Origin: Acaryochloris sp. CCMEE 5410
GTDB lineage: Bacteria > Cyanobacteriota > Cyanobacteriia > Thermosynechococcales > Thermosynechococcaceae
Assembly (NCBI RefSeq): GCF_000238775.2
Contig: NZ_AFEJ02000001.1
Location: 3,596,001 to 3,660,000 of the forward strand
DNA: 64,000 nt
Direction of reading: 5' to 3'
How positions within the stretch are numbered: the stretch's first letter is position 1; the number at the start of each line of letters is the position of its first letter. The notes below the pieces were generated by a model, which saw nothing but the letters and a program-made list of their open reading frames with translations, was not told where the DNA came from and did not search any database. Positions 23,249 through 31,656 of the stretch are shown here, one piece after another. The translations under genes were made by a program, and so were the position numbers.

Positions 23249-24598
23249 GTGGCTGACGATTTCGAAATTTTACGGGGAATTTACAACTCCTTTGATCCTT
23301 TTCGGCCTTTGCCCGCGAAAGACCCAGTATATGTGGATTGCCAGGAAGTAAGGGGGGATGGAGACATCTTGGTGGAACTGGGCAACCAGATTCTCCTAGC
23401 GGAGCGCTTTACCCACCAACTGTATACCGGACATCGCGGGGCAGGGAAATCAACAGAGCTACTGCGATTAGCCAAGTTTTTGGAAGAGCATGGCTTTCAG
23501 GTGGTTTATTTTGCCGCGGATGATGAGGATATTGATGCGGAGGATGCTCAATATACAGATATTTTGCTGGCCTGTACCCGCCATTTGCTGCAAGTCTTGA
23601 AAGGACCGCAAGAAAACCCGGTTTGGCGTTGGGTGCAGTCGCGGATGCAAGCTTTAAAGGAGCTGCTGCAAAGCGAAATTACCTTGGACAATATTTCCAT
23701 TGAGTCTCAAATTACTCAGTTTGCCAAACTGACGGCAACGCTGAAGGCTAGCCCCGATACCCGCGCCAAAATTCGCCAGATTGTCGAACCTCATACAGTG
23801 TCTTTGATTGAGGCGCTTAATCAGTTTATTGAGGAGGCAATGACCAACTCGCCGCAACAATCGACTCAAAAGCTGGTGGTGATTGCTGATAACTTAGACC
23901 GAATCACGCCTGTAATTGCTAGGGAAGGGGCACGTAGCAACCATGAGCAGATCTTTATTGACCGCAATGAACAGCTCAAGGCGCTTAATTGCCATGTGAT
24001 TTATACGGTGCCGATATCTTTGGTTTATTCAGGTCGAGTCACAGACCTGCGGGATATTTACGATACCGATCCGCAGGTGCTACCCATGATTATGGTGCGT
24101 GAGTCTGATGGGGACGTGTACCAGCCAGGTTTAGACACCATGAAAGAAGTCATTGCTAAGCGGGTCTATCAGACCGAAGCTGTGAGTCCTAGTTTAGGAT
24201 TAGACTCGAAGATTTTTGATGCTCCAGAAACCTTAGATCAACTTTGTTTGATGAGTGGAGGACATGTCCGCAATTTGATGTTGTTGGCCCAGTCTTCAGT
24301 GCGGCGAACTCAAGCATTGCCGATCACAGCCCGAACGGTAAAACGAGCGATTACAGAAGCTCGCAACACCTATCGGAATGCAGTCTATGAACGCCAATGG
24401 TCAGTTTTAGCCCAGGTTGCCCGAACGAAGAAAGTCTTGAATGATGAGGTTCATCGAGAGCTATTGTTTAACCGCTGTATTCTGGAATATCGGTTTCTAG
24501 ATGAGGACGAGGAATTGCGATGCTGGTATGATGTGCATCCTTTAATTCGTGGGATTCAAGAGTTTAGAACTGCTTTGGCTGAGGGCGAGACATCATGA
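23249..24598 (+). CDS. P-loop ATPase, partner of TPR protein
   Basis: The 449-aa protein has Walker A GHRGAGKST (about residues 63-71) and Walker B KLVVIADNLDRI (about 208-219). An arginine-rich helical region follows, then a C-terminal winged-helix-like segment (NDEVHRELLFNRCILEYRF). This looks like the STAND/AAA ATPase module of bacterial signalling or conflict systems; that placement is inference. The start is a GTG. Its TGA overlaps the ATG of the next gene (ATGA), so the two proteins are made together. Confidence 0.8.
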   Translation: MADDFEILRGIYNSFDPFRPLPAKDPVYVDCQEVRGDGDILVELGNQILLAERFTHQLYTGHRGAGKSTELLRLAKFLEEHGFQVVYFAADDEDIDAEDAQYTDILLACTRHLLQVLKGPQENPVWRWVQSRMQALKELLQSEITLDNISIESQITQFAKLTATLKASPDTRAKIRQIVEPHTVSLIEALNQFIEEAMTNSPQQSTQKLVVIADNLDRITPVIAREGARSNHEQIFIDRNEQLKALNCHVIYTVPISLVYSGRVTDLRDIYDTDPQVLPMIMVRESDGDVYQPGLDTMKEVIAKRVYQTEAVSPSLGLDSKIFDAPETLDQLCLMSGGHVRNLMLLAQSSVRRTQALPITARTVKRAITEARNTYRNAVYERQWSVLAQVARTKKVLNDEVHRELLFNRCILEYRFLDEDEELRCWYDVHPLIRGIQEFRTALAEGETS

Positions 24599-26382
24599 CT
24601 CAATCACTGACAGATTGGGATGAAGATGTAGTTGTCGATCCAGAGGCAGAGTATCAAGCACTGCTAAGGACTATACGCTGGACTAATGGCTTTGGCCTAT
24701 CGTTTGTGCGGTGCTCACCCGCAGAAGCAGATCGCTTAATTGAGCGAATACAACAAGATTTAGGGAGTCAAAAACCACCGTCTGAATCACAAAAAAAGAT
24801 CGATGTTTTAAGGCTCGAACAACCTATTGATAACCTGTATGAAATTGTGGTGGCACTGCCCAATAAAGACCAAATAGATGTTCTATTTATTACGGGCATT
24901 GATAAGTCTCTGATTGCTGATATCAAGCCTGGTTATCAAGGGGAAGGTGAATATTACAACCTCAACACACTGCCTCGGATCTTAGGTCACCTGAATTTAC
25001 AGCGGGAAAGATTCCGGGATGATTTTGATATTTGTTTCATCTTTTTGGTGCCGCTGTTTGCCCTGAAATACTTTACGCGACGGGCACCGGACTTTTTTGA
25101 TTGGCGATCGGGGGTGTGGGAATTTAGAACTGACGCTAAATTACTTCAGCAGGAAGCGTCAAAGCTTCTTCTGGAAGGTAGTTTTCAGGAATATGTAACT
25201 CTCTCCTCACAAGAACGCACTCACAAAATCTTAGAGATTCGAGAGTTGCTTGATGAGATTCCATCTAGTTCTAATCAACGGTCTGGTTTGTTTTTTGAGT
25301 TGGGAACCCTTTTTGCTGCGGAGGCTGATTATCAATCGGCAATTCGAGCTTATGATCAAGCTTTAAACTTCAAGCCTAACTATCACCAAGCTTGGTACAA
25401 CCGAGGTATTGCTTACAATCATTTAGAGATGCATCAAGAGGCAGTTGCGAGTTGTGATAAAGCTTTAGAGCTTCAGCCAAGCAAATATGAAGCTTGGAAT
25501 AACCGGGGGGTTGCCCTAGTAGATTTAGGGCGATATACAGAGGCAGTTGAAAGTTTTGACAAAGCCCTAAAATATAGACCAGATTACCCTGAACTTTGGA
25601 ATAACCGGGGAGTTGCCTTTGAGAATTTAGGTCAGTATGCAGAGGCAATCTCAAGTTTTGACAGAGCCTTGGCAATCAACTCGAATGACATACAGGCTCA
25701 TTACAACCGGGGCATTGCTTTTGGGAAATTAGATCAACATGAAAAAGCAATCTCTAGTTGGAACAAAGTTATAGAAATTAAACCAGATGAACATAAAGCC
25801 TGGTACAACAAAGGAGTTGCCCTTTTTAATTTAGGAATGTATGAGGAGGCACTAGAAAGCTGGGAGCAAACTATTGAAATTGAACCTAATTTCCATGAAG
25901 CTTGGACCCACCGAGGTAGCGTCTTAGGTCATTTAGGCCTATATGAAGAGGCAATCACTAGTTATAACAAAGCCTTAAAGATCAAACCAGATCTATACGA
26001 AACCTGGAATAAGCGGGGCATTGCTCTAGGACATTTGGATCAGAATAAAGAGGCGATTTCTAGCTTTGATAAGACCTTAGAAATCAAACCTGATTTTTAT
26101 GAAGCTTGGAATAATAGAGGGGCTGCTCTAGATAATATAGGTCGGCATAAAGAAGCAGTCTCAAATTATAACAAGGCTCTAGAGCTGAAACCTAATGATC
26201 CAATGATTTTTTATAACAAAGCCTGCTGCTATGCATTGCAATCTAATACTGAAGATGCAATTGAATACCTCAGTCTTGCCATTGCCCTAGCACCAGATGA
26301 ATATCGAGAAATGGCAAAAACTAACTCCGATTTTGATTCGATTCGAGACAACGAAGCCTTTGAAGCTTTATTAACGTCCTAA
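24595..26382 (+). CDS. TPR protein with N-terminal unassigned domain
   Basis: Residues 1-200 form an alpha/beta domain with FGLSFVRCSPAEADRLIERI and RAPDFFDWRSGVWEF. This domain is found at the front of many cyanobacterial and chloroflexal TPR or ATPase proteins, and I know no agreed name for it. About ten tetratricopeptide repeats of 34 residues follow from about 225, each with A-W-N-N-R-G-x-A and Y-x-E-A-I-x-S-x-x-K-A-L. There is no signal peptide. The 4-nt overlap with the ATPase gene argues for a complex in which the TPRs sense or scaffold and the ATPase switches. Confidence 0.85.
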   Translation: MTQSLTDWDEDVVVDPEAEYQALLRTIRWTNGFGLSFVRCSPAEADRLIERIQQDLGSQKPPSESQKKIDVLRLEQPIDNLYEIVVALPNKDQIDVLFITGIDKSLIADIKPGYQGEGEYYNLNTLPRILGHLNLQRERFRDDFDICFIFLVPLFALKYFTRRAPDFFDWRSGVWEFRTDAKLLQQEASKLLLEGSFQEYVTLSSQERTHKILEIRELLDEIPSSSNQRSGLFFELGTLFAAEADYQSAIRAYDQALNFKPNYHQAWYNRGIAYNHLEMHQEAVASCDKALELQPSKYEAWNNRGVALVDLGRYTEAVESFDKALKYRPDYPELWNNRGVAFENLGQYAEAISSFDRALAINSNDIQAHYNRGIAFGKLDQHEKAISSWNKVIEIKPDEHKAWYNKGVALFNLGMYEEALESWEQTIEIEPNFHEAWTHRGSVLGHLGLYEEAITSYNKALKIKPDLYETWNKRGIALGHLDQNKEAISSFDKTLEIKPDFYEAWNNRGAALDNIGRHKEAVSNYNKALELKPNDPMIFYNKACCYALQSNTEDAIEYLSLAIALAPDEYREMAKTNSDFDSIRDNEAFEALLTS

Positions 26383-29772: not shown

Positions 29773-31656
29773 TTACAGGGTCAAGGCAACCCGAAATCCA
29801 ATATCATTGACGCGGTTATTGGGGGTATAACGGCTGCGATTGGCGGCGCGACAATACCGAGGTTTGTTATACCAAGATCCACCCCGAAGAACCCTGGGAT
29901 CGCCCTCTCTTGTGGTCATCCAGGGACTGCCGTCGACTGGGGCCCCATCATAGTTTTTATGCCAGCAGTCTAAGCACCATTCATAGACATTGCCATGCAT
30001 GTCATAGAGGCCAAAGTTATTGGGCGAGAACCGTCCTACGGGGGTTGTCGATTCTCGATAGACTCCTTTGGGGCCATTGCCATACACAAATTGCCCCTGA
30101 TAATTGGCCTGTTGAGAAGAGAGAGTCGGTCCATAGGAGAAAGGGGTCGCTGTGCCTGCCCGACAGGCATATTCCCACTCGGCTTCACTAGGTAACCGAT
30201 ATTCGCGACCTGCCTTTTGCGATAGGCGAGCGCAAAACTCGATGGCTTCTCGCCATGAAATTTGCTCGACAGGGTAGGTGGCTCCCTTAAATTTGGAGGG
30301 GTCGTAATGGAGGTCCTGAGATACTTTCGGCAGAGATGCAATCGCCCGCCACTGCAGTTGGGTAATCACAAACTTACCCATAAAAAACGGGGCAATCTTG
30401 ACGGAATGGTAAGGGCCTTCATTGGCATCCCGATTCAGTTCATGGCTGGGGGAGCCCATCATAAACTGTCCTCCAGGAATCGCCACCATGTCTAACTTGA
30501 CGCCATTGCCCAAACTTTCTTGAAAGAACTCGGCATTTTGCTGCCGACGCTGGGCCACCTCGCCTTTACTGTTAACGGTCACCACCTCAAACTGAAACGT
30601 TTTCAGCAACGGATGTTCGGCAGTGAGAATCGTTTGGGGCGGAATGGGGACGGGTTTAGGAGTGGGAACAGGTTTGTTATGGGGCTGGCTGGTCACCAGC
30701 TTAGTGGGGGCGATCGAAAGCTGGGAGACGGTTTTGGCAGGCGTTGGCGTTGACAATTGGACCACATGCTGAGCTTGCAAGTCTGCGAGAACAGCAGCAG
30801 CAGAGCCATAGCGCTGGCGCAAATCGTTTTGCAAGAGTTTATCCAGAATCGTCCGAAATCTCGAACTCAAAGGAATCTGAACATACTGCTGCCACTGACT
30901 GATCCAGCTATAGCCGTACTGCAAAAAGAAGGTATAGGGGACCTTGTTCGTCATTAACTGAAAGCAAGACACTCCCAGACTAAAGAGATCGCTCGCGGGG
31001 ATAGACTTGCCTTCCTGCATTTGTTCTAAGGCAGCATACCCCTGGGATCCTAAAGTCGTGCCCGTTTTCATCAGCATCGACTCTGTAAAGCGTCGGGACA
31101 CCCCAAAATCAATCAAGACCAGTTTGCCGTCATCATCTCGTCGCATGATGTTTTCGGGCTTCAGATCCCGGTGAATCACCCCCTGAACATGAATATCTCG
31201 CAAGACGGGCAGAATATTCAGGAGTAATTCACGAATTTTAGGCTCGCCAAATACGCCCGTGGTTTGAAGTTCTTTGAGGAGGGTATGGCCTTTGACAAAT
31301 TCTTGGGCCAGGTAGAGATTGGCTCCTTCCGTAAAGTAGGCATATAACGTCGGAATCTGAGGATTTTGGCCCAGTTGCTGAAGTTGTTGGGCTTCTTGGG
31401 CAAATAGCTCTTCTGCTCGCTGAATGGCCCAGGTTCCCTGGGACTGATAGGCCAGCTGCTTTACCACACAGCGTTGATGGTGGTTATGGGTATCTTCTGC
31501 GAGGTAGATTTTGCCAAATCCGCCCCGGTCCAAGGGGTTCAGGATCTTAAATCGATCGCTTAATAACGGAACTAAGCGCAGACCACATTGCTGACAATGC
31601 TTGTGATTGTCAGGGTTTAGGGGCTTTTCACAATCTGGATTCAGGCAGCAGAGCAT
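29773..31656 (-). CDS. Ser/Thr protein kinase fused to FGE-sulfatase (SUMF1-like) domain
   Basis: Residues 1-28 form a zinc ribbon (CLNPDC...CQQC). A Hanks-type kinase (about 33-290) shows the glycine loop GGFGKIYLA, VVKQL (ATP Lys), HRDLKPENI and DFGVSRR. A proline-rich linker follows. Residues about 385-627 are a formylglycine-generating-enzyme-like domain (MVAIPGGQFMMGSP, RLPSEAEWEYACRAG, NVYEWCLDCW, VLRGGSW). FGE domains of this cyanobacterial type probably act as sensor or binding modules rather than oxidases. The gene opposes and separates the sugar-binding-protein and permease genes. Confidence 0.95.
   Translation of the reverse strand: MLCCLNPDCEKPLNPDNHKHCQQCGLRLVPLLSDRFKILNPLDRGGFGKIYLAEDTHNHHQRCVVKQLAYQSQGTWAIQRAEELFAQEAQQLQQLGQNPQIPTLYAYFTEGANLYLAQEFVKGHTLLKELQTTGVFGEPKIRELLLNILPVLRDIHVQGVIHRDLKPENIMRRDDDGKLVLIDFGVSRRFTESMLMKTGTTLGSQGYAALEQMQEGKSIPASDLFSLGVSCFQLMTNKVPYTFFLQYGYSWISQWQQYVQIPLSSRFRTILDKLLQNDLRQRYGSAAAVLADLQAQHVVQLSTPTPAKTVSQLSIAPTKLVTSQPHNKPVPTPKPVPIPPQTILTAEHPLLKTFQFEVVTVNSKGEVAQRRQQNAEFFQESLGNGVKLDMVAIPGGQFMMGSPSHELNRDANEGPYHSVKIAPFFMGKFVITQLQWRAIASLPKVSQDLHYDPSKFKGATYPVEQISWREAIEFCARLSQKAGREYRLPSEAEWEYACRAGTATPFSYGPTLSSQQANYQGQFVYGNGPKGVYRESTTPVGRFSPNNFGLYDMHGNVYEWCLDCWHKNYDGAPVDGSPWMTTREGDPRVLRGGSWYNKPRYCRAANRSRYTPNNRVNDIGFRVALTL

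Follow-up and report, generated by a model that had tools for sequence, protein, structure and literature searches.

An ATPase and a predicted P-loop-less AAA+ protein with a TPR array: a candidate two-protein NTPase switch in Acaryochloris

The nSTAND2 systems are mobile two-gene operons that pair an active with an eroded STAND NTPase; variable modules, in most cases GT4 or HEPN effectors, are fused to the eroded partner, and a mixed toroid with arginine fingers has been proposed for them (Kaur et al. 2021, PMC8195603). Likened by description, this operon is the closest published system to the gene pair studied here, which lies in the cyanobacterium Acaryochloris sp. CCMEE 5410 on a stretch of 64,000 nucleotides (nt; contig NZ_AFEJ02000001.1, positions 3,596,001 to 3,660,000), hereafter the window. 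Its upstream gene, A, encodes an ATPase and its downstream gene, B, a protein with a tetratricopeptide repeat (TPR) array. We read the two proteins as a modular NTPase switch of the type used in bacterial conflict, immune or cell-death, with a probability of roughly 55%, and we infer a role in defence. As in nSTAND2 the two genes are adjacent and, judged by sequence and structural models, would encode one active and one dead NTPase, whereas the variable modules are here TPR arrays, CHAT, NACHT-HEAT and nSTAND1-WD40. GT4 and HEPN were not seen among the Pfam matches listed for the scanned B proteins, and no nSTAND2 entry was among the best 25 of 108 and the best 25 of 46 Pfam families, the families themselves not being aligned. 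We found no published description of the A/B pair; the supplementary neighbourhood tables of PMC7159879 and PMC8195603 may list it. The comparison suggests that the pair has the plan of nSTAND2 and is itself apparently undescribed.

MoxR-vWA ternary systems are described in passages of two surveys, with VMAP (Kaur et al. 2020, PMC7159879) and with iSTAND and iSTAND2 (Kaur et al. 2021, PMC8195603). In the iSTAND forms treated in those passages the dead NTPase is constant and caspase-like, STAND and repeat modules are swapped, which resembles B, and in one case an A-type ATPase is found next to VMAP and MoxR genes (plasmid p057_J, see below). Unlike in these systems, neither MoxR nor vWA nor VMAP turned up when window neighbours of the pair were scanned with Pfam (FAD oxidoreductase, HicB-like, a 106-residue protein, Uma2, GNAT and MiaE), and the switch is A itself. 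BREX BrxB is, according to sections of PMC12839542, a fast evolving inactive STAND protein with an AAA+ core and lost Walker motifs that occurs alone or fused. By description B is like it in its predicted AAA+ core without Walker motifs, alone or fused, and in evolving fast, but BREX partners are not among the scanned window neighbours. Avs, bNACHT and NLR-type STAND proteins consist of an AAA+-type switch and a C-terminal repeat receptor; the B-nSTAND1-WD40 and B-NACHT-HEAT relatives hold such a protein whole, whereas in the window switch and receptor are two proteins with no fused effector. ORC and clamp loaders, where active and inactive AAA+ subunits work together, are like the pair in fold match and unlike it in that a replication context was not seen here, no neighbour survey for replication genes having been made, and in that their functions do not compare. 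Parts of PMC10907252 place nSTAND1, CHAT and NACHT in conflict systems of multicellular bacteria.

The ATPase and its predicted dead partner

An earlier sequence-only reading had proposed a translationally coupled ATPase and TPR protein. Both open reading frames (ORFs) are found where it placed them, with their four-base overlap, as is the Walker A motif it had pointed out, and the TPRs of B are unambiguous (Pfam TPR_1 2.8e-91, 10 stretches). The features of the pair are as follows.

23249-24598, plus strand: gene A, AAA+/STAND-fold ATPase with a C-terminal winged-helix-like end, 449 residues, GTG start
23429-23455, plus strand: Walker A GHRGAGKST, A residues 61-69 (from sequence)
23873-23905, plus strand: Walker B region LVVIADNLDRI, A residues 209-219 (from sequence)
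24254-24277, plus strand: SGGHVRNL with the sensor-2-like arginine R341 of A (from conservation)
24595-24598, plus strand: ATGA start/stop overlap of A and B (from sequence)
24595-26382, plus strand: gene B, predicted dead AAA+ domain and TPR array, 595 residues, ATG start
24595-25275, plus strand: B residues 1-227, predicted P-loop-less AAA+ fold domain (from AlphaFold2 and PDB fold matches)
25003-25005, plus strand: R137 of B, invariant arginine of the LNxxR helix, candidate trans-acting residue (from conservation)
25087-25113, plus strand: PDFFDWRSG block, B residues 165-173, immediately preceding the last core strand
25285-26373, plus strand: TPR array of B with some ten repeats and the TPR end-of-group region (from Pfam TPR_1 and NF047558)

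The AlphaFold2 model of A (mean predicted local distance difference test, pLDDT, 92.4) points to an AAA+ ATPase in the range from ORC/Cdc6 to STAND. It matches 2fna, 2qen, CED-4 and NRC4 over about 285-302 residues, which comprise the nucleotide-binding, helical and winged-helix parts of the AAA+ fold, and A ends after the winged-helix-like part, so that the TPRs sit on B and not on the same polypeptide. The highest score was obtained with Cdc6/Orc1 (Z 15.1, 278 residues), but at 8.5 Å; archaeal SSO1545 (2fna; Z 14.8, 297 residues, 4.5 Å), TnsC (7mbw_D; Z 14.8, 292 residues, 4.3 Å), NRC4 (Z 14.2, 285 residues, 4.9 Å) and CED-4 (Z 13.9, 288 residues, 4.5 Å) followed. As these Z values are too close to rank, the fold alone cannot decide between a replication-type and an NLR-type protein. 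No Pfam family passed its cut-off for the window A (AAA_16 1.9e-5, 25.6 versus 32.6 bits), and a PDB sequence search with A gave little beyond P-loop stretches.

The catalytic motifs of A are well kept. GK[ST] is present in 142 of 145 A ORFs, and among the 124 paired full-length A proteins K67 of Walker A, D214 of the Walker B region, G337 and G338 of SGGxxR and R305 are all invariant, with D217 in 122 and R341 in 123. STAND signatures are a TTR-type sensor 1 and a GxP that replaces sensor 2, and at the places of these A carries YTVP and SGGxxR. We take R341 to be like sensor 2 of AAA+ proteins, which classical STAND proteins presumably are without. The idea of a STAND-like ATPase switch thus holds for the AAA+/STAND fold and the Walker motifs, while the SGGxxR arginine looks AAA+/ORC-like and not classically STAND.

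The N-terminal region of B had been taken for a recurring alpha/beta domain. An alpha/beta core is indeed found, five-stranded in an AlphaFold2 model built with 84 aligned relatives (mean pLDDT 84.5), but rather than a generic domain it is predicted to be an AAA+ fold without a P-loop. Its fold neighbours (Foldseek, VIA-align) are the AAA+ proteins Pex1/Pex6, ORC, ClpB and TnsC, the best match being Drosophila ORC 7jk6_C (Z 10.6, 134 residues, 3.3 Å), along with TnsC 8fcu_Q (Z 10.5, 164 residues, 4.1 Å) and Cdc6/Orc1 2qby_A (Z 10.2, 144 residues, 3.6 Å). A P-loop was found in none of 139 B domains of relatives, B residues 1-227 had no Pfam match, and a PDB sequence search with B found no relative. 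By prediction, then, B residues 1-227 are an AAA+ fold that does not bind nucleotide. G101, present in 118 of the 124 paired B domains, would lie at the strand end where the Walker B acid is expected, a placement inferred from the order of the strands. R137 is an arginine in all 124, D166 is equally invariant, and R171 is an arginine in 86 of the 107 TPR, CHAT and short forms. The last two of these belong to the PDFFDWRSG block, which is part of RAPDFFDWRSGVWEF (B residues 163-177) and whose WRSG directly precedes the last core strand in the model; the arginine fingers of clamp loaders and p97-like AAA+ proteins lie roughly before the last core strand. It had further been proposed that switch and sensor are split over two proteins. 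The TPR protein still fits as the sensor half, but since the N-terminal domain of B is a predicted P-loop-less AAA+ fold, the switch itself would also be split, into an active half in A and a dead half in B.

Beyond this domain the C-terminus of B is, as read from sequence, interchangeable among TPR arrays, CHAT, NACHT-HEAT and nSTAND1-WD40. Simple motif patterns divided 139 B proteins into 93 with TPR, 15 with nSTAND1, one with another P-loop, 15 short and 15 other. Of the 15 others, 6 were scanned with Pfam and all had TPR, which adds at least 6 to the TPR class, and one more scanned was CHAT. In the short forms the protein stops no more than 60 residues past the domain, in some because the contig ends there. 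Four long B proteins were scanned, giving nSTAND1 in L083 (8.1e-32) and L097 (1.2e-27) and WD40 repeats as leading matches in L081 and L086, which also have a second P-loop and an FDQFEEFFF motif, the motifs behind the 15 nSTAND1 calls, and so combine NTPase motifs and WD40 in one protein. Further, B of L151 carries CHAT (3.8e-54) and B of L164 is NNH2-NACHT-HEAT. In the window B a match to NF047558 covers residues 539-593. Tandem arrays of 95-130 bp are present in 86 of 141 B genes, with a median match of 86% and up to 97%. The window B repeats are not called as such an array, and alleles in two other Acaryochloris genomes have 11.5 copies at 90% (G001) and 2.0 copies (G004). Comparable repeat turnover is known for the recognition repeats of fungal NLR-like proteins.

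Pairing, distribution and turnover

We surveyed 141 sources: 60 loci hand-picked from a phylum search, a second locus of the own genome, 79 named loci taken from the matches listed by a further search, and the window. They hold 145 A ORFs, a number that includes ORFs split by stops or contig ends, and for 135 of these a B-domain ORF follows within 5 kb downstream. The two genes overlap or abut in 75 of the 135 pairs, and in 37 the spacing is exactly -4, as in the window. The recurrence of this order and spacing argues for a pairing beyond chance, and the neighbourhood of the pair is in this sense conserved. Ten A ORFs have no downstream B. Four of them are at or near a contig end (L143, L172, L174 and L179), L050 has B just upstream of A instead, and in L082, L085, L087, L098 and L175 B is absent within 5 kb downstream. 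L082 (1989-3341) and L085 (1983-3359) are A-type ATPases with GHIGSGKS that lie, in two genomes, just upstream of the same aroE-like gene. Another arrangement was observed in L043, L044, L049 and L109, where a B-TPR gene is followed by A and then by a short TPR-less B, one ATPase thus being flanked by two B genes.

Twelve genomes, chosen by hand and mostly from those with many copies, were searched with profiles of both proteins. Here B lay within 3.5 kb of 54 of 59 A matches, and an A just upstream was lacking for 13 of 67 B matches. It should be noted that the weakest matches were dropped from these counts, for A 5 of 64 (E 3.5e-18 and weaker) and for B 6 of 73 (E 1.2e-7 and weaker), one B match of E 1.4e-14 being kept. 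Nine of the 12 genomes have 5-8 A matches each, and the own genome (8.1 Mb) has two A-B pairs. In eight of the 12 we also observed, once each, a B domain standing alone in a frame of 167-193 residues with no A neighbour; this may be a shared regulator or adaptor. The stand-alone domains are at G084:C51:22079-22555, G166:C1:4843719-4844171, G113:C1:6083063-6083536, G208:C3:1336525-1336998, G134:C3:3413239-3413682, G079:C78:64925-65359, G142:C1:433935-434360 and G232:C117:509-982.

The distances of A and B vary together, with r 0.84 in a close group of 96 pairs and 0.91 in the other 28, values reached by none of 999 permutations. We do not take this as proof, as shared inheritance would yield the same.

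Across the phylum the pair is patchy. The A profile, with at most five candidates scored per genome, matched 92 of 291 genomes at E 1e-3, of which 67 were strong (E <1e-20); as listed, all strong positives are in genomes of 3.8 Mb or more. Of 58 relatives searched, with the own genome included, 20 have relatives of the N-terminal domain of B.

Within the genus the locus turns over. G001 and G004 have the pair at the same site, between the FAD oxidoreductase and a second Uma2 gene (Uma2b) followed by GNAT and MiaE. Between the window and G001 the flanks are close in nt identity (FAD oxidoreductase 91.7%, Uma2b 91.5%, GNAT 89.8%, MiaE 93.1%), whereas A has only 55.9%, the B domain 69.4% and the rest of B 66.5%. 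With flanks near-identical and A and B so far diverged, G001 carries a different allele at the same site. G004 is more distant in its flanks (79-87%) and has 87.2% nt identity in A, 77.7% in the B domain and 63.1% in the rest of B. An extra ORF of 464 residues (L196:8075-9469) lies between the FAD oxidoreductase and A in G004, where the window has the HicB-like, 106-residue and Uma2 genes. The pair is located elsewhere in G005. No pair was present in the stretch retrieved after the FAD oxidoreductase in G002, nor in those beside GNAT-MiaE in G003 and G006, all three being fragmented assemblies with other genes at these places. The variability expected of such a pair is therefore seen, with alleles diverging inside conserved flanks. 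A core housekeeping pair, conserved and non-variable, was rejected on these grounds, the A profile matching less than the whole phylum and the locus turning over within the genus.

Matches to A were found in nine plasmid records. The conjugative plasmid pREC1 of Acaryochloris marina MBIC10699 has A and, after it, a B-WD40 protein of 1,920 residues; HicA/HicB, tyrosine recombinases and a NACHT protein lie around the pair. A plasmid of Acidisarcina (Acidobacteriota) has a relative of A and then an overlapping B-like TPR protein (8.6e-10). A protein encoded on the Nostoc plasmid p057_J, with the annotation SAV_2336-related, ends with an A-type domain (192 bits, GHRGGGKT), and its neighbours are VMAP (VMAP-C 1.1e-33, VMAP-M1 1.6e-18) and a MoxR ATPase; this is a single instance. 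The B domain alone gave no match on plasmids by tblastn, but tblastn misses the B domains there, since the profile does find B-type ORFs.

Readings of the pair

In the conflict switch that we suggest, A would be the sole working ATPase and the nucleotide-driven engine. The N-terminal domain of B would have kept the AAA+ fold, lost nucleotide binding and docked beside A in a mixed dimer or ring, carrying the variable receptor, which would be the TPR solenoid in the window and TPR-CHAT, TPR-NACHT-HEAT or TPR-nSTAND1-WD40 in relatives. A trigger bound by the receptor may shift the seat of the dead domain on A, and the domain might then supply an arginine, R137 or R171 of WRSG, upon which A would turn over or exchange nucleotide. 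The complex would next remodel or assemble; fused versions could fire their C-terminal CHAT or STAND module, and in the TPR version of the window the TPRs may recruit a partner that serves as the output. From complex formation and arginine donation to trigger and output, these are steps that we infer. The swapping of modules, the patchy multicopy spread, the turnover of alleles and the tie to VMAP and MoxR suggest a conflict system.

Several results weigh against this proposal. In protein identity the window and G001 differ unequally, with 48% in A and 71% in the B domain, so A and B do not always move together. R171 is present in none of the 17 nSTAND1 or NACHT forms, those with a second NTPase, and an arginine finger at R171 can therefore not hold for all members. 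Profile-profile comparison aligned A and B correctly at the P-loop position without reaching significance (hhalign probability 4%, P 0.01); B as a decayed copy of A is thus not established. Pfam recognised no effector domain in the window's own B. The best PADLOC match of A was a weak one to PDC-S20 (3.3e-5), reaching 1.4e-9 for the best of 79 A members. Lastly, a search of 50,697 phage records gave no match to the pair and IMG/VR no confirmed one, and a phage-borne module was rejected on that account. PADLOC on B gave TPR-driven matches only and no strong system component.

Some of the same observations would suit a signalling or scaffold function outside immunity, the pair sensing an internal or neighbour-cell cue (stress, development or kin recognition) and the TPRs assembling a regulatory complex. 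TPR solenoids are general scaffolds, the window pair is without a recognised effector, the B-less A genes beside the same aroE-like gene (L082, L085) look like having a fixed cellular job, and the strong positives are confined to the larger genomes. We nevertheless consider it rather unlikely, as patchy presence, 5-8 divergent copies in most of the chosen genomes and allele replacement at one site, together with plasmid carriage beside recombinases, the CHAT, NACHT and nSTAND1 fusions and the VMAP-MoxR tie, fit conflict better. It seems improbable that the pair is a nucleic-acid-bound ATPase of the ORC/Cdc6/TnsC type, with A binding DNA or RNA, B as a targeting adaptor and the TPRs recruiting partners. 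The best PDB matches of both models do include Cdc6/Orc1, ORC subunits and TnsC, an adaptor B would act as inactive subunits do in ORC, and inactive STAND domains are argued to keep nucleic-acid binding in a passage of Kaur et al. 2021 (PMC8195603). CED-4 and plant NLRs, however, share the fold with A at close Z, and a shared fold shows no function. A nucleic-acid role would also be compatible with the conflict switch, whose trigger could be a nucleic acid. We regard it as very improbable that the two flanking Uma2 nucleases and the HicB-like gene belong with the pair to one larger defence unit at this locus. These genes are within 1.5 kb on either side, Uma2b stays next to the pair in G001 and G004, and the pREC1 pair also has HicA/HicB beside it. 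Against this, Uma2-like ORFs occur near pairs at the density of the genome as a whole: eight such ORFs in 8 of 139 other pair loci, the window's own two left out, make 0.58 per 100 kb, compared with 0.59 per 100 kb from 48 Uma2-family matches in the own 8.1-Mb genome. The flanking nucleases are hence unlikely to be part of the system, and with a HicB match below threshold both were rejected as components.

If the two-protein conflict switch is correct, cyanobacteria would have a widespread module of immune type that joins one ATPase to interchangeable receptors through a dead AAA+ domain. A large number of TPR and WD40 proteins of Nostoc-like cyanobacteria that lack annotation would then be accounted for, and the pair would be a compact system of two proteins in which to study the control of active NTPase subunits by inactive ones. 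Further, we speculate by analogy, and tentatively, that A might be a common helper ATPase of cyanobacteria, powering many receptors in trans through the same dead-AAA+ plug, even those that are complete NLR-like proteins (B-TPR-nSTAND1-WD40). This would parallel the dependence of plant sensor NLRs on helper NLRs, and the orphan B genes (13 of 67) and B-less A copies would then be one network.

Flanking genes

The two flanking Uma2 genes mentioned in the sequence-only reading are real (Pfam 5.7e-14 and 1.1e-30). For the gene it called HicB-like there is some match (E 0.0015), but at 19.1 bits versus a cut-off of 27 it is sub-threshold. About 3.4 kb from the pair, at 29773-31656 on the minus strand, the window also has a Pkinase domain (7.8e-38) fused to FGE-sulfatase (3.6e-57); a passage of PMC7159879 counts FGS domains among the effectors of conflict systems in cyanobacteria.

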